From positions 2,725,444 to 2,789,443 of the forward strand of contig NZ_FWWY01000001.1 of NCBI RefSeq assembly GCF_900176145.1: a stretch of DNA of 64,000 nucleotides, given 5' to 3'. Below, piece after piece: positions 2,050 through 9,972 of the stretch (positions are counted from its first letter, which is position 1; every line of letters starts with the position of its first letter). The translations under genes were made by a program, and so were the position numbers. The notes beneath the pieces were generated by a model that worked only from the letters and a program-made list of their open reading frames with translations, searched no databases and was not told the origin of the DNA. This stretch comes from Sulfobacillus thermosulfidooxidans DSM 9293 (GTDB lineage Bacteria > Bacillota > Sulfobacillia > Sulfobacillales > Sulfobacillaceae).

Positions 2050-2541
2050 ATGCCCCATCTTGAAGACGAGCTCTATGAGGTTTCATTGGTTGTGAATAAT
2101 CAACAGCATATCCTAAAAGTGCCTGCAGAAGAACGTCTTCTTACCACATTACGATCCAGACTGCACATTTTTTCGGCACGTTATGGCTGTGGTACGGGAC
2201 ATTGTGGATCTTGTGTGGTGCTGGTCGATCATGAACCGGTGCCGAGTTGTCTTTTACTCACGATCCGTCAAAAAAACCGGGTGATTCAAACGGTCGAAGG
2301 ATTTGAAGATGACCTATTGATGAACCAGTTAATAGCGGCCTTTAGTGAAGAACATGCGGCTCAATGCGGATATTGCACCCCAGGACTCTTGCTCAGTGCC
2401 AAATACTTATTGGAGCGCAAACAGGAGTTAACAGAGTCTGATCTTCGGGCAGGTATTTCGTCACATATCTGTCGCTGCACGGGATATTACGCACCTTTAC
2501 GAGCCATTGCGAAAGTGAGAGACCATCATGCGCTGGATTGA
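2050..2541 (+). CDS. Molybdenum hydroxylase, [2Fe-2S] subunit (xanthine dehydrogenase/CoxS family)
   Basis: This 163-residue protein is the small electron-transfer subunit of a three-part molybdenum hydroxylase. It has the two expected [2Fe-2S] sites. The N-terminal plant-type ferredoxin site is the Cys cluster CGTGHCGSC plus a later Cys, around residues 46-68. The C-terminal helical site has CGYC near residue 112 and CRC near residue 141. Length matches the family (about 155-170). A GGAGATGA ribosome site lies 8 bases before the ATG. The gene overlaps the FAD subunit by 14 bases, so the two are probably translationally coupled. It passes electrons from the molybdenum site to FAD in the cytoplasm. 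Substrate cannot be told from this subunit. Confidence 0.93.
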   Translation: MPHLEDELYEVSLVVNNQQHILKVPAEERLLTTLRSRLHIFSARYGCGTGHCGSCVVLVDHEPVPSCLLLTIRQKNRVIQTVEGFEDDLLMNQLIAAFSEEHAAQCGYCTPGLLLSAKYLLERKQELTESDLRAGISSHICRCTGYYAPLRAIAKVRDHHALD

Positions 2542-3301
2542 GCCTTCGACTATCCAAGAAGTGCAAGCATGTTTGGCGCAACGTGTTCCTATCATAGGTG
2601 GTGGTACATGGCTTCTTCAAGACGGCCATAATCCTCGAGCCGTATGTGATTTGAGGGCATGGGCCGGGAGTGACGAGATTACACACGATGCACAAGGTTG
2701 GACTCTTGGCCCAAATGTTACGTTACATGCGTGGCATGAAGCATTAGGTGCTAACCATCAGATTTCCCAAATCTTGAGTCTGATAGGCTCGCCAGCATTT
2801 CGCAGGGTGGCTACGGTCATTGGTGTGATTGCCAATCCACAACCAGTGGCTGACTTATATCCTCTCTTGCGCTTGTTACAGTCTTCGGTGTTGTACATCG
2901 ACACGGCACATGACTTTATCCAGAACGACCTTGCATCTTGGCCAGAAAGCCTTCAAGAGCGTGCCATAGTGGGGGTGAAGGTGCCAGAGATTCCTAAGGC
3001 ATCCCGCGTTTATTTTCGTAAGTATGCAAAAGGCCGGATGACCCGCCCGTTAGTGAACTTCACGGTCATTATGAGTTCCCAAGATTCTCGTTGGGACATC
3101 ACGTTTATGGCCTCTGGATTGTCGGTATGGCCGCTTCAAGGAGCGGCTTGCGGTTCCCCGCAGGATATCGATTACGCGGTAAGGCATTGGATATTAGAAC
3201 GGCAGGACGTCAACCAGTTTTATCAGGCTCTAATCCTGAATATGTGGCAAGACATTTATCAACAGTGGTGGAATGAGAATAATAGGGGAATTGCATTATG
3301 A
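2528..3301 (+). CDS. Molybdenum hydroxylase, FAD-binding subunit (CoxM/XdhB-like)
   Basis: This 257-residue protein matches the FAD-binding medium subunit. It has the N-terminal IIGGGTWLL loop (about residues 22-30) and the GSPAFRRVATV segment followed by NPQPVADLYPLL (about 85-115), which corresponds to the family's second FAD motif. It is slightly short for the family (usually about 280-290). The conserved TIGGN-type motif reads VIGVIAN here, which may alter flavin binding. It would accept electrons from the [2Fe-2S] subunit and pass them to the final acceptor. The stop overlaps the ATG of the large subunit (ATGA). Confidence 0.85.
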   Translation: MRWIEPSTIQEVQACLAQRVPIIGGGTWLLQDGHNPRAVCDLRAWAGSDEITHDAQGWTLGPNVTLHAWHEALGANHQISQILSLIGSPAFRRVATVIGVIANPQPVADLYPLLRLLQSSVLYIDTAHDFIQNDLASWPESLQERAIVGVKVPEIPKASRVYFRKYAKGRMTRPLVNFTVIMSSQDSRWDITFMASGLSVWPLQGAACGSPQDIDYAVRHWILERQDVNQFYQALILNMWQDIYQQWWNENNRGIAL

Positions 3302-5445
3302 GAAAATGGGCTTTAAGCACTCGACCCCGGTTTGCTCCGGATATGTTGGATTTGGCCCCTGATGCCTTAGTGTGTGGCGTGATTGAAGCGGCTTCTGCCC
3401 CGTGCACGGCTCAAATACAAAATCTTGAGTCGTTAAGACAAATGCCGGGGGTTGTAGCCATTCTGACGGCGGATGATGTACCCGAACACCGGTTTACGAC
3501 GGCTGGACAGCCCGAGCCAGAGCCGTCTCCTTATGATATGAAGATTTTGAATACGGTGGTCCGTTATCCTGGAGAGCCCATCGCGCTCATTGCCGCCCAT
3601 TCGGAAAAAGATATCAAATCCGTACAACAATGTGCGGAGATTGATTATCAACCTGTTCATGGCCCCTTTCATGAATCCCATCCTTCGAATGTGATGAGCC
3701 AGTGGGATCTTCGCACTGAACCCTTGAGTGAGGTAGGGAACGAACAGTTTCGCACGACGGTTCGAGTGCCGCGGGTCAGCCACATGCAATTAGAACCCCA
3801 TGCCGCTTTGAGCTACTTTGATGAAGAAAATCGGCTGGTTATCGTGACCACAACCCAAGTTCCTTATCATGTCAGGCGCATTGTTGCCCGAGCTTTGGGA
3901 TGGCCTGTGTCGCGTATACTGGTTAAAGCAACAGATGTGGGTGGAGGATTTGGCGGCAAGCAAGAAGTGATTGTGGAGCCCTGGGTGGCATTATTGGCGG
4001 TGTGGACCAAAAAACCTGTCAAAATGATGTTAAACCGCCGGCAAGAGTTCACCATCACCCGCACACGGCATGCGGCCACGTTAAACGTGGAGAGCACGTG
4101 GAACAATACGACATTACAAAGCATTGATCTGAAAGCGGATGTAGAAACGGGTCCCTACGGATCGCACGGGCCCACCGTGGCCCATAATATGGGGCTAAAG
4201 TCTTTGCCCCTTTACCACGCAAAAAATTACCATTTCCATGGCCAAGTGCGTTATACCCCAGGACCTGTAGCGGGAGCATTTCGCGGCTACGGGGGACCTC
4301 AAGGAGCTATGGCCATCGAAACCCATATCAATCAAGTAGCCCATGCCAAAGGATTATCGTCCGCTGCCCTCCGCCATCTCATTCTGGCGAAGAAAGGGGA
4401 TGCTCTCGATATTTTTGCCCATGATGGCATGGTCAAACGCCAACATCACAATGACCTAGGGGAGCTGTTAGCGACGACCATGGCACGAATTCAATCCGGC
4501 CCGCCTGTGGATGAGAACGAGGGCATTGGTCTTGCCATGAGTATGCAAGCGAGTGGAGTACCAGGTCAAGAACTGGCTCAAGTTGTCATTCATGTCGATG
4601 AGGATGGCAGTTTGGTGGTGAAAACCGGTGCAATGGACATTGGACAGGGGTCTAAGGAAGCGCTCGCTCAGATTATTTATGAGGCATTGGACCTTCCAGT
4701 GGATTCTATCCCCATCTATTTTTCCATGGGGAAGACGTCCGATAACGGATTTGATTACGGGACTTATGCCTCGTCGACCACATATGTTACGGGCTATGCA
4801 GCGTTTAAGGCGGCCCGCATTGTGCGTCGTAAGATGCTAGCGTTGGCACGAAGAATTTCCCGGGCGTCATCAACCCCTTTAAGTCCTTTGGCGGCGTGTT
4901 GGTACTCTGTGGCGCACGCCAGTTTTTACGGTCCTTGGCGACATCCAATTATGGGTCAAGGCGTTGCGGTGCCGACGGATTCTCCCGCTCCCTTTGCCAT
5001 ATTAGCTGTCCGCCTCAAAGTTCATAACACGGGTCAATTAGATATTCAACAAATGGTCATGGGAATCGATGTGGGCAAGCCGATTAATCCCATGGGGCTT
5101 CGCGGACAAATTGAAGGCGCTGTCGTGCAAGGGCTCGGCTACGCGCTGTGCGAGGAATTGGAACTGGATGAACAAGATGCTTACGTCCGCAATGCGTCAC
5201 TTTTCGATTATCCATTGATTACTCCCCAGGATATTCCACCCTTAGAGATTATCATTGCTGATCATCAAGAACAGACGGTACCTTTTGGTGGCAAATCTGC
5301 GGGTGAGGTGGCCTTAGCCCCTGTTGCTCCGGCCATCGTGGACGGAATTTTTCAAGCTAAAGGCATCTGGATGACCGAGTTACCTATCACGATGGAACGT
5401 CTGTGGTATGCCTTACAAGCGCAACAAGAAACCATAGTCCGTTAG
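3298..5445 (+). CDS. Molybdenum hydroxylase, large molybdopterin-binding subunit
   Basis: This 715-residue catalytic subunit belongs to the xanthine dehydrogenase/aldehyde oxidase/CO dehydrogenase family. Visible family motifs are QLEPHAA (about 164-170), GGGFGGKQE (215-223), GAFRGYGGPQGA (about 327-338), GAMDIGQGSKEA and, near the C-terminus, GKSAGEVALAP. Glu670 in the last motif sits where the family's general-base glutamate lies. The active-site loop lacks the AYRCSFR selenocysteine/cysteine loop signature of CO dehydrogenases, so CO oxidation is unlikely. Neighbouring hydrolases for cyclic ureides suggest it hydroxylates a purine or pyrimidine ring, for example uracil to barbiturate. That substrate is inference. 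No XdhC-type maturation gene is in the cluster. Confidence 0.9.
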   Translation: MRKWALSTRPRFAPDMLDLAPDALVCGVIEAASAPCTAQIQNLESLRQMPGVVAILTADDVPEHRFTTAGQPEPEPSPYDMKILNTVVRYPGEPIALIAAHSEKDIKSVQQCAEIDYQPVHGPFHESHPSNVMSQWDLRTEPLSEVGNEQFRTTVRVPRVSHMQLEPHAALSYFDEENRLVIVTTTQVPYHVRRIVARALGWPVSRILVKATDVGGGFGGKQEVIVEPWVALLAVWTKKPVKMMLNRRQEFTITRTRHAATLNVESTWNNTTLQSIDLKADVETGPYGSHGPTVAHNMGLKSLPLYHAKNYHFHGQVRYTPGPVAGAFRGYGGPQGAMAIETHINQVAHAKGLSSAALRHLILAKKGDALDIFAHDGMVKRQHHNDLGELLATTMARIQSGPPVDENEGIGLAMSMQASGVPGQELAQVVIHVDEDGSLVVKTGAMDIGQGSKEALAQIIYEALDLPVDSIPIYFSMGKTSDNGFDYGTYASSTTYVTGYAAFKAARIVRRKMLALARRISRASSTPLSPLAACWYSVAHASFYGPWRHPIMGQGVAVPTDSPAPFAILAVRLKVHNTGQLDIQQMVMGIDVGKPINPMGLRGQIEGAVVQGLGYALCEELELDEQDAYVRNASLFDYPLITPQDIPPLEIIIADHQEQTVPFGGKSAGEVALAPVAPAIVDGIFQAKGIWMTELPITMERLWYALQAQQETIVR

Positions 5446-5566: not shown

Positions 5567-6130
5567 ATGACTAGCACAGACGAAATTTTGACGATACCAG
5601 TAAAAGATGTCACAGAAGAAGCAGTGGCCCCTTACGGCATGTTACTCGGCGAAGGGGTACATCGTCCGGGACTTCCCATCCCTTTTTATCAAGGTAGCGT
5701 GGAGGAAGGAGCTAACTTAGATTTTGTCTGCCGTGGGAAGCCGGTCATTCGTACAGCGCGCATTTCACGGCGTGATACCGAAGTACTCTGGTTGGAATAT
5801 CACACCATTTTGACGCAGGTTTTTATTGGACTCGGTTCCGCACCTTTTGTTATGGTGCTCGGGCGCCCCGAAGAGAATGCTAAAGTTCCCAATTTAGCCC
5901 AAGTTGAGGCATTTAAATTTCCACCGGGTCACGGTATCATGCTCTGGCAACGGGTATGGCATGATTTTCCGATGGCGATTCATCATCCTGTGACCATTTT
6001 TACCATGAATTCGGAGGAAGTGGTGGAAGCCTTAGCATCACAGCCCGTTCCAGCGGATATGAACCGAGGCGATGTCTATAAAGTGCATGTCAAAACTCAT
6101 ACCGGCAAACATTTGCGGGTAGATATGTGA
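5567..6130 (+). CDS. Ureidoglycolate lyase (AllA) family protein
   Basis: This 187-residue protein resembles the cupin-like ureidoglycolate lyase family, which splits ureidoglycolate into urea and glyoxylate. The N-terminal VAPYGMLLGEGVHRPG, the central LEYHTILTQVFIGLG and the C-terminal AFKFPPGHGIMLWQRVWHDF align in order with the family pattern (PFGxxI, LErHpxxsQaFiPL, AFxxxxGqGvxYxxGvWH). The normally ErH motif is EYH, and the overall match is loose, so the substrate may differ. In this cluster it might act on the ureido acid released by the ring-opening enzyme. The start has AAGGAGCGAT 7-11 bases upstream. Its stop overlaps the start of the next gene. Confidence 0.7.
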   Translation: MTSTDEILTIPVKDVTEEAVAPYGMLLGEGVHRPGLPIPFYQGSVEEGANLDFVCRGKPVIRTARISRRDTEVLWLEYHTILTQVFIGLGSAPFVMVLGRPEENAKVPNLAQVEAFKFPPGHGIMLWQRVWHDFPMAIHHPVTIFTMNSEEVVEALASQPVPADMNRGDVYKVHVKTHTGKHLRVDM

Positions 6131-7197
6131 TGGAAACACGAATCTTTACCGGTTTTATGAAACATCCCAGCGATTTTTCTGAGCTAGACGCGGCAATTTC
6201 CCGTGGTGAAATCGATCCATTTCGCATTGTCGCCATTCTCGGAAAAACCGAAGGGAACGGCGGCCGGAATGATTTCAGTCGCGACTTGGCCGTCGAGAAG
6301 AGTCGTCAGGTTTTGGCAACCCATTTGCAACAAGATCCAGCAGTCATAGAAGACCGTGTGCTGCTGTCATTTTCCGGCGGCACCGAAGGCGTTACCACAC
6401 CCCATTACCGGGTCTTTGAAACGCGAGGAACGTTTCCTTCCGCACCATTATATGAGTCCAGGCTGGCGATTGGGCGGGGGAGGACGCGCCAGTTTCTTCC
6501 GGAGGAAGTGGGTACGATGACGATGGTCGAAGAAACCGCTCAAACGATCCGGAGGATTTTGGAGCAAGCCCGAATTGATCCACACGATGTGCATTTTGTT
6601 CATGTGAAAGGTGCCATTCCATACGAATGGCCACCGAAATCACCTCGCAACTCCATGGCCTATTCCCGGGGTGCTTCGGCTTTAGGGGTGGCTCTGGCAC
6701 TTGGCGAAGTTAACCAACATGATTTGAATGACGATATGATTCTTCAGGATTATGCGTTGTATAGCCGGTGTGCCAGCACCTCCAGCAAACCGGGATTGTC
6801 CTACTCCGATATTATGGTGCTCGGAAATTCACCGTGGTGGAACGGGAATTTGGTCATTACACACACCGTGATGCAGGATATATTAGACGCCCAATCGGTG
6901 ATCTCATTGTTCGAGAGCTTCGGGATTTCTAGCTCTCAGCTCTATAAAGAGGCTATTGCCCAGCGTATTCATGGCGTCTTTGCTAAGGCTGAGGCGGATC
7001 CACGTCAAAGTGTTCGGGGATACCGTCATACCATGCTATCGGATGATGACATTGATGATACTCGTTATGCCCGCTGCGTCGTGAGTTCCATTTTGGCTGC
7101 GATCACCGGCACTCCCGCTGTGTATGTATCAACGCGTGCTGAACATCATGGGCCACTGGGCGGTGGACCGGTGGCCGTGATTCTCTCGATATCCTAA
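6127..7197 (+). CDS. Ring-opening amidohydrolase (barbiturase / cyanuric acid hydrolase family)
   Basis: This 356-residue enzyme belongs to the small AtzD/TrzD/barbiturase family, which opens cyclic ureides by hydrolysis. Three repeated domains are visible, each with the expected Lys and Ser. Domain A has GKTEGNGGRNDFSR (Lys40) and SGGTEG (Ser83). Domain B has HVKGAIP (Lys161) and RGASALGVALALGE (Ser184). Domain C has FAKAEADP (Lys287) and VYVSTRAEHHGPLGGGPVAV (Ser335). Length is normal (about 355-370). In domain C the usual SGGAEHQGP reads STRAEHHGP, which could mark altered specificity. Start is GTG 6127 overlapping the previous stop, or ATG 6130. Barbiturate and cyanurate activity cannot be separated by eye. 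Confidence 0.88.
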   Translation: MMETRIFTGFMKHPSDFSELDAAISRGEIDPFRIVAILGKTEGNGGRNDFSRDLAVEKSRQVLATHLQQDPAVIEDRVLLSFSGGTEGVTTPHYRVFETRGTFPSAPLYESRLAIGRGRTRQFLPEEVGTMTMVEETAQTIRRILEQARIDPHDVHFVHVKGAIPYEWPPKSPRNSMAYSRGASALGVALALGEVNQHDLNDDMILQDYALYSRCASTSSKPGLSYSDIMVLGNSPWWNGNLVITHTVMQDILDAQSVISLFESFGISSSQLYKEAIAQRIHGVFAKAEADPRQSVRGYRHTMLSDDDIDDTRYARCVVSSILAAITGTPAVYVSTRAEHHGPLGGGPVAVILSIS

Positions 7198-7441: not shown

Positions 7442-8635
7442 ATGATTCATGATACCTGGCAAGCATTTTTTGATACGACATGCACATTAGAACCTGAAGG
7501 GCAGGGCGTGTTAAGCGGCACAACTTTTGCCGCCAAAGAGGCGTTTGACGTGAAAGGTTTTGTCACCTCAGGTGGCAATCCCGATTGGTACCGAACACAT
7601 TCTAAAGCGTCCGAGACAGCGCGGGCGATTACCCAGCTTGTGCAGGCAGGATCACGTCTGGTAGGCAAGACCCACACGGACGAATTAATGTATGGATTAA
7701 ATGGTGAAAATGTCCATTATGGCACTCCGGTTAATCCCAAGGCCCCTGATCGCATTCCGGGAGGATCTTCGAGTGGTTCGGCATCCGCAGTGGCGGGTAA
7801 ATTAGTGGACTTTGCGATTGGAACGGATACGGGGGGATCGGTACGGATTCCAGCGAGTTACACGGGAATTTACGGATTTCGTCCAACCATCGGGAGAATT
7901 TCTCTTGAAGGCGTTATCCCTCTTTCGCAAACATTTGATACGGTGGGATGTTTAGCCAGAGATCCGTCACTGCTAGAAAACGTCTCCAGTGTCTTATTAG
8001 ACCACTACAAAATCCCATCTGGGCATAGCTTTTCACGCGTGGTTGTGGCATCTGACGCCATATCTCGCGTGGACCAAGAATTGGTGCCGGAAGTGGAAGC
8101 AAAAATCGCACATATCGCTTCGAGTTTTTTGACGGTCCAGCATGAAGTGATTGCGGAACCGGGGCTTGAGACATGGAGTCAAGCCTTTCGCATTATTCAA
8201 GGTTATGATATATGGCAGAATTTTGGAACCTGGATAACCGAGACCAAGCCGCATTTTGGCCCTGGATTCCACGAACGGTTTTATTGGACCCGTACGATCA
8301 CGCGAGAAGAACGCGATAAGTGGGCTCATAAGCAGAAGGAATGGCGCGAAGAACTGTGGAGCCGACTGCGCCAAGATACCCTGATTGTCCTGCCGACAGC
8401 ACCGGGAGTGGCCCCTTTGAAAAATACTCCTCTAAATATTCTTAATCCCTTTCGCGACCGGGTTTTGCAACTCACGTGTATTGCGGGGTTAGGGGGATTG
8501 CCTCAGGTCTCTATGCCTCTGTTGACGATTCAAGGCATTCCTTTTGGCATTTCGGTGATTGCGGGTCCCGGCATGGACGAAGAATTATTGGCCTGGGTCA
8601 GAAATTGGGTCATAGGGGAGGGCATAGAATGTTAA
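7442..8635 (+). CDS. Amidase signature family hydrolase (AtzE/GatA-like)
   Basis: This 397-residue protein has the amidase-signature core. Lys32 lies in TFAAKEAFDVKG, the Gly/Ser-rich loop PGGSSSGSASAVA spans 106-118 with the cis-Ser near 109, and the nucleophile Ser133 lies in GTDTGGSVRIPAS. It is shorter than typical members (450-500), mainly in the C-terminal half. Family members hydrolyse amides including 1-carboxybiuret (AtzE) and acyl-ureas. Behind a ring-opening enzyme it is a good candidate for cleaving the linear ureide product, e.g. ureidomalonate to urea and malonate (inferred). No GatB/GatC is nearby, so it is not the tRNA amidotransferase subunit. It follows a 244-base gap. Confidence 0.88.
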   Translation: MIHDTWQAFFDTTCTLEPEGQGVLSGTTFAAKEAFDVKGFVTSGGNPDWYRTHSKASETARAITQLVQAGSRLVGKTHTDELMYGLNGENVHYGTPVNPKAPDRIPGGSSSGSASAVAGKLVDFAIGTDTGGSVRIPASYTGIYGFRPTIGRISLEGVIPLSQTFDTVGCLARDPSLLENVSSVLLDHYKIPSGHSFSRVVVASDAISRVDQELVPEVEAKIAHIASSFLTVQHEVIAEPGLETWSQAFRIIQGYDIWQNFGTWITETKPHFGPGFHERFYWTRTITREERDKWAHKQKEWREELWSRLRQDTLIVLPTAPGVAPLKNTPLNILNPFRDRVLQLTCIAGLGGLPQVSMPLLTIQGIPFGISVIAGPGMDEELLAWVRNWVIGEGIEC

Positions 8636-9972
8636 CACGCATTCGGAATACCACGGCAGTGACCATGAATGCATCTCGCGATATCGTATCCCCGACCGAC
8701 CTGTGGATAGAAGACCGGAAGATTGTGGCAATAGGACCCTATGGCCATCGTCCTGACCGTGTGATTGATGGGACGGATATGGTCGCGATTCCTGGGCTCG
8801 TGCAGCCGCACATTCATTTGTGTCAAACCTTATTTCGTGGCTTGGCTGATGATTTGTCCTTGTTGGATTGGCTGGAACAACGCATCTGGCCCCTTGAAGC
8901 GGCTTTAGACGAGGATGCTATGCGGGTCTCGGCTCAATTGGGTATTGCTGAACTGCTGGCGGGGGGCACGACAACCATTTTAGATATGGGGTCAGTAAAT
9001 CATACGGAACACATTTTGAACACGATGTTACAGATGGGTATTCGCGGATATTCCGGAAAATGTCTAATGGACCGTCCCAATAAATTTTTGATGCAAAGTA
9101 AAGATGATGCGATGCAAGAAAGTTATGACTTGGCTCACCGGTGGCATGGACAGGATCAAGGACGGGTGCGTTATGCACCCGCGCCCCGGTTTACATTATC
9201 AGCTAGCGATGCGTTGTTTGAAGAGGCCCGCTCACTGGCCGATGCATTCCATACGGTGTTGCATACCCATGGGGCAGAAACGCGCGATGAAATTACTGAA
9301 GGGATAAAACTTCACCGTCGCCCTCCTGTTGCCCATTTATTCGACCTGCAAATTCTTGCCCCATCTGCGGTCATTGCGCATGGCGTGTGGATGAATGCCG
9401 ATGAAGAAAATATGGTGGCCACATCCAACGCTAAACTCGTTCATTGCCCGTCATCCAATCTAAAACTCGGCTCAGGATTTGCTCCGACGGTGCGGTGGCG
9501 CCAAAAGGGTTTGATCTTTGGGATTGCCGCTGACGGAGCACCGTGTAACAATCTACTGGATGGATTTCAAGAAATGCGGACGGCAGCGCTTTTAGCGAAG
9601 CCAGTGTTTGGACCCACCTATTTGTCTGCCCCTGAGGTTTTTGCACATGCCACGATTGAAGGTGCCCGGGTCTTGGGATTGGAAGATGAAATTGGGTCGC
9701 TCGAAGTTGGCAAGCAGGCCGATATTGTTCTCCTTAATTTTCGTGGGCCGCATCATCAATTATGGGATATGACACCGATTTACAGTCAGCTCGTCTATCA
9801 AACGCATGCGAGCGATGTGTATCTTACCATGGTGGCGGGTCAAATTCTTTATGAAAACGGGCGATACACCACCTTGAACCTTGACGAAGTAAAGAGAACG
9901 GCTAGGGAGGCACTGCTCCGTGTGTTACGGCGTGCTGAAATGGAACCCTTATCATCATGGATGACGACGTAG
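8629..9972 (+). CDS. Amidohydrolase-superfamily deaminase (SsnA/AtzA/TrzN/MtaD-like)
   Basis: This 447-residue metal-dependent hydrolase belongs to the nucleobase/triazine deaminase group. Metal ligands are visible as His61 and His63 (QPHIHLCQ), a later His in LHTHGAE, a His in IAHGVWMNADE and an Asp in GIAADGAPCNN. The stretch LFRGLADDLSLLDWLEQRIWPLE is characteristic of the MTA/SAH deaminase, 8-oxoguanine deaminase and atrazine hydrolase branch. The ATG lies inside the amidase stop (ATGTTAA), so translation is coupled. It may supply a keto-substrate to the pathway by deaminating an amino-pyrimidine, purine or triazine. Exact substrate is unknown. An upstream in-frame start at 8476 would lie inside the amidase and is rejected. 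Confidence 0.88.
   Translation: MLTRIRNTTAVTMNASRDIVSPTDLWIEDRKIVAIGPYGHRPDRVIDGTDMVAIPGLVQPHIHLCQTLFRGLADDLSLLDWLEQRIWPLEAALDEDAMRVSAQLGIAELLAGGTTTILDMGSVNHTEHILNTMLQMGIRGYSGKCLMDRPNKFLMQSKDDAMQESYDLAHRWHGQDQGRVRYAPAPRFTLSASDALFEEARSLADAFHTVLHTHGAETRDEITEGIKLHRRPPVAHLFDLQILAPSAVIAHGVWMNADEENMVATSNAKLVHCPSSNLKLGSGFAPTVRWRQKGLIFGIAADGAPCNNLLDGFQEMRTAALLAKPVFGPTYLSAPEVFAHATIEGARVLGLEDEIGSLEVGKQADIVLLNFRGPHHQLWDMTPIYSQLVYQTHASDVYLTMVAGQILYENGRYTTLNLDEVKRTAREALLRVLRRAEMEPLSSWMTT

Follow-up and report, generated by a model that had tools for sequence, protein, structure and literature searches.

An AllA-like protein paired with a Group IV ring-opening amidohydrolase in a candidate purine-breakdown operon of acidophilic bacteria

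Results

An AllA-like gene overlaps a ring-opener gene

We analyzed a 64,000-nucleotide stretch of the Sulfobacillus thermosulfidooxidans DSM 9293 genome (contig NZ_FWWY01000001.1, positions 2,725,444 to 2,789,443; hereafter the window). Three xanthine-dehydrogenase (XDH)-family subunit genes precede the AllA-like gene, and genes for a ring-opening amidohydrolase, an amidase and a deaminase follow it (Table 1). The initial annotation tied the AllA-like gene to the ring opener, and the sequence bears this out: the TGA stop codon of the former (6128-6130) overlaps the start codon of the latter, be it GTG 6127 or ATG 6130, and a relative (L023) has a similar overlap. Nor did we recognize any allantoin gene among the eight neighbourhood proteins scanned, as that annotation had also maintained. 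The true start of the deaminase gene probably lies downstream of 8476, because the open reading frame overlaps the amidase; a gene of this type occupies the same place in loci L030-L033.

Table 1. The AllA-like gene of the window and its neighbours
Feature	Position	Strand	Evidence
xanthine-dehydrogenase-family [2Fe-2S] subunit	2050..2541	+	PF01799/PF00111; best NCBIfam model XdhC_XDHase, under cut-off
xanthine-dehydrogenase-family FAD subunit, divergent	2528..3301	+	PF00941, 52 bits; 32-45% identity to Sulfobacillus-type relatives
xanthine-dehydrogenase-family molybdopterin subunit	3298..5445	+	PF02738/PF20256; NCBIfam XdhA 403 bits, cut-off 780
AllA-like protein (PF04115)	5567..6130	+	187 aa; core E77-Y78-H79, Q84, F86, W131-H132
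ring-opening amidohydrolase (ROA), AtzD/barbiturase family, Group IV R-T-R-T-R	6127..7197	+	PF09663, 405 bits; alignment to AtzD
amidase-signature hydrolase, candidate acylurea hydrolase of the proposed pathway	7442..8635	+	NCBIfam PRK08310 464.9 bits, cut-off 391
amidohydrolase-family deaminase, 5'-deoxyadenosine/8-oxoguanine/guanine-deaminase type	8476..9972	+	NCBIfam PRK07228 497.8 bits, below cut-off 522

The protein has the AllA fold and belongs to a clade of its own

PF04115 is the sole Pfam match of the AllA-like ORF (43.7 bits against a cut-off of 23). An AlphaFold2 model built from 22 sequences reached a pLDDT of 86.3, with residues 32-49 below 50. Among the families listed by a fold search, this model matched AllA crystal structures best (1XSQ, 1XSR, 1YQC and 2BDR; Z 17.2-19.0), followed by DUF4867 (14.3 and 12.7) and other cupins (at most 8.6), among them sugar isomerases at about 8. 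Given the profile score and the superposition on AllA structures, the AllA-family membership of ORF 5567-6130, proposed in the initial annotation, is not a chance assignment. All NCBIfam ureidoglycolate-lyase models stayed under their cut-offs (33.6/260, 23.9/160, 22.8/212 and 21.7/230 bits).

The protein and its relatives form one clade, with 98% bootstrap on the branch separating this subfamily from the rest. Sulfobacillus benefaciens is the nearest among the named loci (75% identity to the window protein), and the closest relatives of the clade in the sampled tree are Novosphingobium proteins. These are encoded on plasmids (L018-L020, around 8000-8560) and make up a separate PF04115 clade of about 30% identity in a different gene context, read from the ORF list alone as the records are unannotated. 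A profile search of the window's genome returned a single PF04115 match, and hence no second gene that could be a canonical AllA. Across the phylum, PF04115 occurs in 9 of 199 genomes, the window's own included; the other phylum proteins placed in the tree (L008 and L009 left out) fall outside the subfamily clade.

The middle residue of the E-x-H motif drifts while a wider set of residues is replaced

The residues equivalent to E. coli AllA E72, H74, Q79, F81, W123 and H124 (E77, H79, Q84, F86, W131 and H132 in the window) are invariant across 23 subfamily and 7 canonical sequences. These 23 are the A. caldus protein and the 22 sequences of alignment A2; L030-L033 were omitted as apparent duplicates of the genomes behind L023, L027, L026 and L024. 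The equivalent of E. coli R73, the middle residue of E-x-H, is Y in the window, so that the EYH of the initial annotation is indeed present at residues 77-79. To call the core altered was an overstatement: 16 of the 23 sequences have R in the middle, 5 have Y, and H and F occur once each, the non-R residues being restricted to Sulfobacillus-type members while R is retained in Acidithiobacillus members of the same operon. With four different residues (R, Y, F, H) at this site among syntenic operons, R-to-Y carries little information on function, and since 16 of 23 members keep R we discard it as the key change. By these alignments, R-to-Y is local drift at a position tolerated by the same operon family.

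What sets the subfamily apart from canonical AllA in the alignment is a broader replacement of residues. The equivalents of E. coli N31, R37, H39, N117, D140 and R141 all differ from those of the seven canonical AllAs, although alignment of the 31-53 loop is uncertain; segment 31-53 is nearly invariant within the subfamily yet poorly modelled. Comparison with AllA gives a divided picture, the fold and the E-x-H/Q/W-H core being common to both and the six canonical residues replaced. Together with the separate clade, the low ureidoglycolate-lyase scores and linkage to a ring opener and not to allantoin genes, this supports the earlier proposal that the substrate is other than ureidoglycolate, if not the R-to-Y argument on which that proposal leaned. 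We conclude that it is unlikely to be a ureidoglycolate lyase of the ordinary kind.

The partner is a Group IV ring opener

Peat et al. (2013; PMC3758960) divided ring-opening amidohydrolases into six groups by AtzD residues 195, 321, 325, 345 and 346. In the accessible text of that paper, Group IV (Arg, Met/Thr, Arg, Thr, Arg) contains only Sulfobacillus acidophilus and Acidithiobacillus sequences, is set apart from both cyanuric acid hydrolase and barbiturase, and has a role called unknown. The window's ring opener belongs to this group by signature and by its Sulfobacillus/Acidithiobacillus kinship. Its R-T-R-T-R shares none of the five residues with the barbiturase signature N-H-K-V-S/A given in the same text, and departs from the R-T-R-G-G of cyanuric acid hydrolase. 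AtzD numbering in our alignment is mostly one lower than in PMC3758960.

The R-T/M-R-T-R signature is carried by 26 of the 34 aligned ring openers, all of the linked ones (25 without the duplicate L001), and in addition by L071; it is absent from the other 8 and from 4 further openers in the tree. Group IV openers form a clade with 100% support. At alignment positions 162 and 232 the openers retain their lysine and serine.

The AllA-like gene and the Group IV gene occur together

We scanned 84,980 species genomes with two subfamily motifs, a pattern scan that could miss divergent members. It returned 20 loci, 19 of them subfamily, from Sulfobacillus-type, Acidithiobacillus, Acidiferrobacter-type or other bins with the same or a similar context; the twentieth (L049, 27%) lacks any operon gene. 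As judged by these motifs, the subfamily is confined to acidophiles within the scan.

Among 29 Acidithiobacillaceae genomes, 14 encode a subfamily protein and the same 14 a PF09663 protein, the two adjacent by coordinates in 14 of 14; G266 encodes an additional ring opener away from the pair. Identical sets of this size would arise by chance once in 77.6 million, a figure to be read in the knowledge that related genomes are not independent. The residue-level check for Group IV covered 8 of the 14. In 61 genomes around the window's own, seven encode a subfamily protein, all seven have a Group IV opener and six have the two genes adjacent; two additional low-scoring matches belong to other PF04115 proteins, and G227, an eighth genome, encodes an opener from outside Group IV and no AllA-like gene.

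The seventh genome, G200, has its AllA-like gene (L024) without an adjacent opener, and its Group IV opener L071 (G200:C179:87000-103000, 7500-8567) alone among unrelated genes on another contig. In the tree L071 falls among copies from other lineages; on this placement the pairing has outlasted a move or replacement of the Group IV gene in G200. The tree of the AllA-like proteins is congruent with that of the ring openers: Mantel r is 0.92, a value reached in 0 of 2000 permutations, and 13 of 19 splits are common to both.

The operons combine the pair with purine-type and candidate acylurea-processing genes

XDH-type subunits lie directly upstream in 17 of the 19 subfamily loci (L030-L048). 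The exceptions are L034, which holds the AllA-like/ring-opener pair alone, and L043, with no XDH within the stretch covered. In Acidithiobacillus-type loci (L035-L044 and L047), a PF02133 purine permease, a guanine-deaminase-like protein, adenosine deaminase (over its NCBIfam cut-off in L039) and the nucleoside permease NUP are found upstream in 10 of 11; these purine genes are missing from L041 and from two A. caldus plasmids. Acidiferrobacter-type loci carry GuaD and NUP in 3 of 3, on the other strand, and lack adenosine deaminase. None of the five Sulfobacillus-type loci, the window's own kind, has adenosine deaminase, NUP or the Acidithiobacillus guanine deaminase; their purine link consists of the XDH-type subunits, the purine-type deaminase and, in L031 and L032, a PF02133-type permease.

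Downstream, the ring opener is followed by AtzE, HpxZ and a GGT-family protein in all 12 loci with enough flank (L035-L044 and the two A. caldus plasmids; L047 is too short), with AtzG in every one but L038 at the threshold used. XdhC is present in the Acidithiobacillus operons. The Acidiferrobacter-type loci L045, L046 and L048 have BiuH (404 bits against 370 in L045), and neither AtzE nor HpxZ within the stretch covered. The Sulfobacillus-type loci have the PRK08310 amidase and the purine-type deaminase in 5 of 5, window included. One of them (L033) also has BiuH, its ring opener not being adjacent, and the BiuH relatives in L046, L048 and L033 keep catalytic-type residues. An FAA-hydrolase protein follows the Group IV gene in L030-L032, and formamidase-type proteins occur in L030, L031 and L033.

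The molybdopterin subunit of the window is only 24-28% identical to those of Acidithiobacillus- and Acidiferrobacter-type loci, where the subunit order is different, while across the same divide AllA-like proteins are 49-58% and ring openers 47-51% identical; both XDH lineages reach about half the NCBIfam xanthine-dehydrogenase cut-offs. Together with the agreement of the two trees, these identities suggest that the AllA-like and ring-opener genes moved as a unit and became associated with two dissimilar XDH-type enzymes, an argument for an XDH-type oxidation as a step of the pathway. The two A. caldus plasmids (NC_015851.1 and NZ_CP026329.1; L016 and L017) carry the operon amid insertion sequences, and in A. 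caldus MTH-04 an ISL3 element lies between XDH and the AllA-like gene.

No uricase or HIU hydrolase was found in the genomes searched

Uricase (PF01014) was found in none of 15 genomes, whose completeness is mostly not stated, and neither was HIU hydrolase (PF00576); control genomes matched both. HpxO over its cut-off was likewise found in 0 of 15, weak matches reaching at most 48.5 bits against 500, as in most control genomes. Urease is encoded in 8 of the 15, and allophanate hydrolase over its cut-off in 8 of 17 genomes, including all three Acidiferrobacter-type BiuH genomes. Three genomes (G264, G268 and G269) have neither urease nor allophanate hydrolase over its cut-off, so that released urea would be without obvious use there.

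Discussion

We suggest, as a reading that we hold at about even chances, that the AllA-like protein is an AllA-fold C-N lyase working with the adjacent Group IV opener in a uricase-free purine-breakdown operon of acidophiles. AllA itself removes urea from ureidoglycolate, a carbinolamine, by C-N bond cleavage. By analogy, an XDH-type enzyme would make xanthine or urate; the AllA-like enzyme would cleave the carbinolamine C-N bond of a hydrated or oxidized urate derivative, releasing urea or a ureide; and the Group IV enzyme would open a substituted barbiturate-like ring to an acylurea. The AllA-like step could come before or after ring opening. AtzGE with HpxZ, BiuH or the PRK08310 amidase would then strip the ureido group of its terminal nitrogen, leaving an amide for the HpxW-like (GGT-family) protein to hydrolyze. 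According to the available text of PMC6219798, AtzGE deaminates 1-carboxybiuret and AtzH decarboxylates the product, and in that of PMC5806882 BiuH attacks the terminal ureido carbon, and a crystal structure captures the enzyme after reaction with N-carbamoyl-aspartate. Given this chemistry, AtzGE with HpxZ, or BiuH, followed by the HpxW-like protein, makes a plausible degradation of any carboxylate-ended acylurea.

Several observations count against the purine reading: BiuH in four loci is no less compatible with a biuret-type product; adenosine deaminase, NUP and the Acidithiobacillus guanine deaminase are missing from Sulfobacillus-type loci, and the upstream purine genes from L041 and the two A. 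caldus plasmids; L043 shows no XDH and L034 nothing but the pair; the XDH scores are about half the cut-offs; and in G264, G268 and G269 urea would be of no evident benefit. A bolder and rather improbable version has the AllA-like enzyme hydrolyze urate itself (urate + 2 H2O -> (iso)dialurate + urea), a reaction that is the reverse of the classical Behrend-Roosen uric acid synthesis. The Group IV enzyme would then open this 5-hydroxybarbiturate to an acylurea, its Thr345 and Arg346 meeting the 5-oxygen where barbiturase has Val345, and AtzGE/HpxZ/HpxW, BiuH or the amidase would finish the acylurea. If true, urate would be broken down by a pathway that needs neither uricase nor oxygen.

The most serious rival casts the Group IV enzyme as a cyanuric acid hydrolase, fed by XDH-type oxidation of a urate-derived triazine (5-azauracil/oxonate), with AtzGE and AtzH or BiuH downstream and the AllA-like protein acting on a triazine precursor. 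It stays in contention because of BiuH in L045 and its relatives, the AtzG-AtzE-HpxZ order as in pADP-1, and the NCBIfam cyanuric acid amidohydrolase model, which is narrowly passed (378.8 bits for the window opener and 372.3, against 360). Yet every linked opener examined has T-R at positions 345/346 where G-G would be expected, and with two active-site positions differing the model match on 6127-7197 is possibly over-annotation. Moreover, 9 of 17 genomes have no allophanate hydrolase over its cut-off, the HpxW-like GGT gene would be superfluous, and no source of the triazine is known. We found no support for conversion of oxonate to cyanurate in the literature searched, and on balance think this route unlikely.

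Slightly more doubtful is an ordinary ureidoglycolate lyase that moved to another operon and kept its activity. It would account for the shared fold, the E-x-H/Q/W-H core and the PF04115 score over cut-off, but not for scores far under the ureidoglycolate-lyase cut-offs, the six differing residues (subject to the uncertain loop alignment), the strict tie to Group IV, or the want of HIU hydrolase and uricase in all 15 genomes.

The initial annotation had offered ureidomalonate as a substrate, which would place the locus in the oxidative pyrimidine pathway (uracil to barbiturate to ureidomalonate), the AllA-like protein cleaving the last compound. As an acylurea, ureidomalonate has no carbinolamine carbon. 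The logic of an oxidase, an opener and an amidase is indeed common to both systems, and an XDH-type oxidase, a barbiturase-family opener and an amidase are neighbours here. The substrate is nonetheless disfavoured: the opener does not carry the barbiturase signature, and the compound lacks the carbon that an AllA-type lyase would attack. In addition, the surroundings in Acidithiobacillus- and Acidiferrobacter-type loci point to purines and not pyrimidines, with purine deaminases and NUP in the Acidithiobacillus operons, and other hydrolases already fit the acylurea step downstream in loci with enough flank. We consider this route, summarized for Rhodococcus in the accessible text of PMC3758960, quite improbable. 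Equally so is a non-lyase cupin (an isomerase, decarboxylase or regulator in the same operon): the fold serves cupins of many functions and residue 78 varies, but the AllA core is invariant in 23 of 23 sequences and AllA structures score far above other cupins, sugar isomerases included.

The candidate purine operon resembles two known systems in part. With the AtzD-AtzG-AtzE-AtzH operon of pADP-1 it shares, in Acidithiobacillus, the order opener, AtzG, AtzE, HpxZ/AtzH; unlike that operon it adds XDH-type subunits, the AllA-like protein, XdhC and GGT, lacks AtzF and has an opener of another group. The hpxWXYZ-type oxalurate clusters of Enterobacteriaceae (ggt-atzG-atzE-atzH) have the GGT, AtzG, AtzE and HpxZ set in common with it, whereas the acidophile operon has the ring opener and the AllA-like gene and no allantoate amidohydrolase was seen alongside it. 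We found no prior description of the acidophile operon in the literature searched, most subscription journals lying outside its reach, and no mention of purine, urea or xanthine in the accessible parts of two Sulfobacillus genome papers. The tie of Group IV to an AllA-like protein and purine genes is likewise absent from the accessible part of the account in PMC3758960, and gives the group a concrete, testable setting.

The AllA-like gene may be part of a perhaps undescribed purine pathway, one that points to a uricase-less purine route in bioleaching bacteria. For these genes, annotation as "ureidoglycolate lyase" or "cyanuric acid amidohydrolase" in databases may be incorrect.

AllA-type and ring-opener genes also meet outside this family. 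On a Polaromonas plasmid (L063; NZ_MG869615.1, 10413-12209) an AllA-type gene lies beside an opener with R-S-R-G-G, near dihydropyrimidinase, racemase and polysaccharide-deacetylase genes resembling an allantoin cluster; its AllA falls on the canonical side and its opener outside Group IV, and we rejected it as an instance of the same pair. In relatives of the window's genome (L073, 6268-8315, and L075, 604-2633), an FAA-hydrolase-like gene lies directly before a non-Group-IV opener with R-E-R-G-G.
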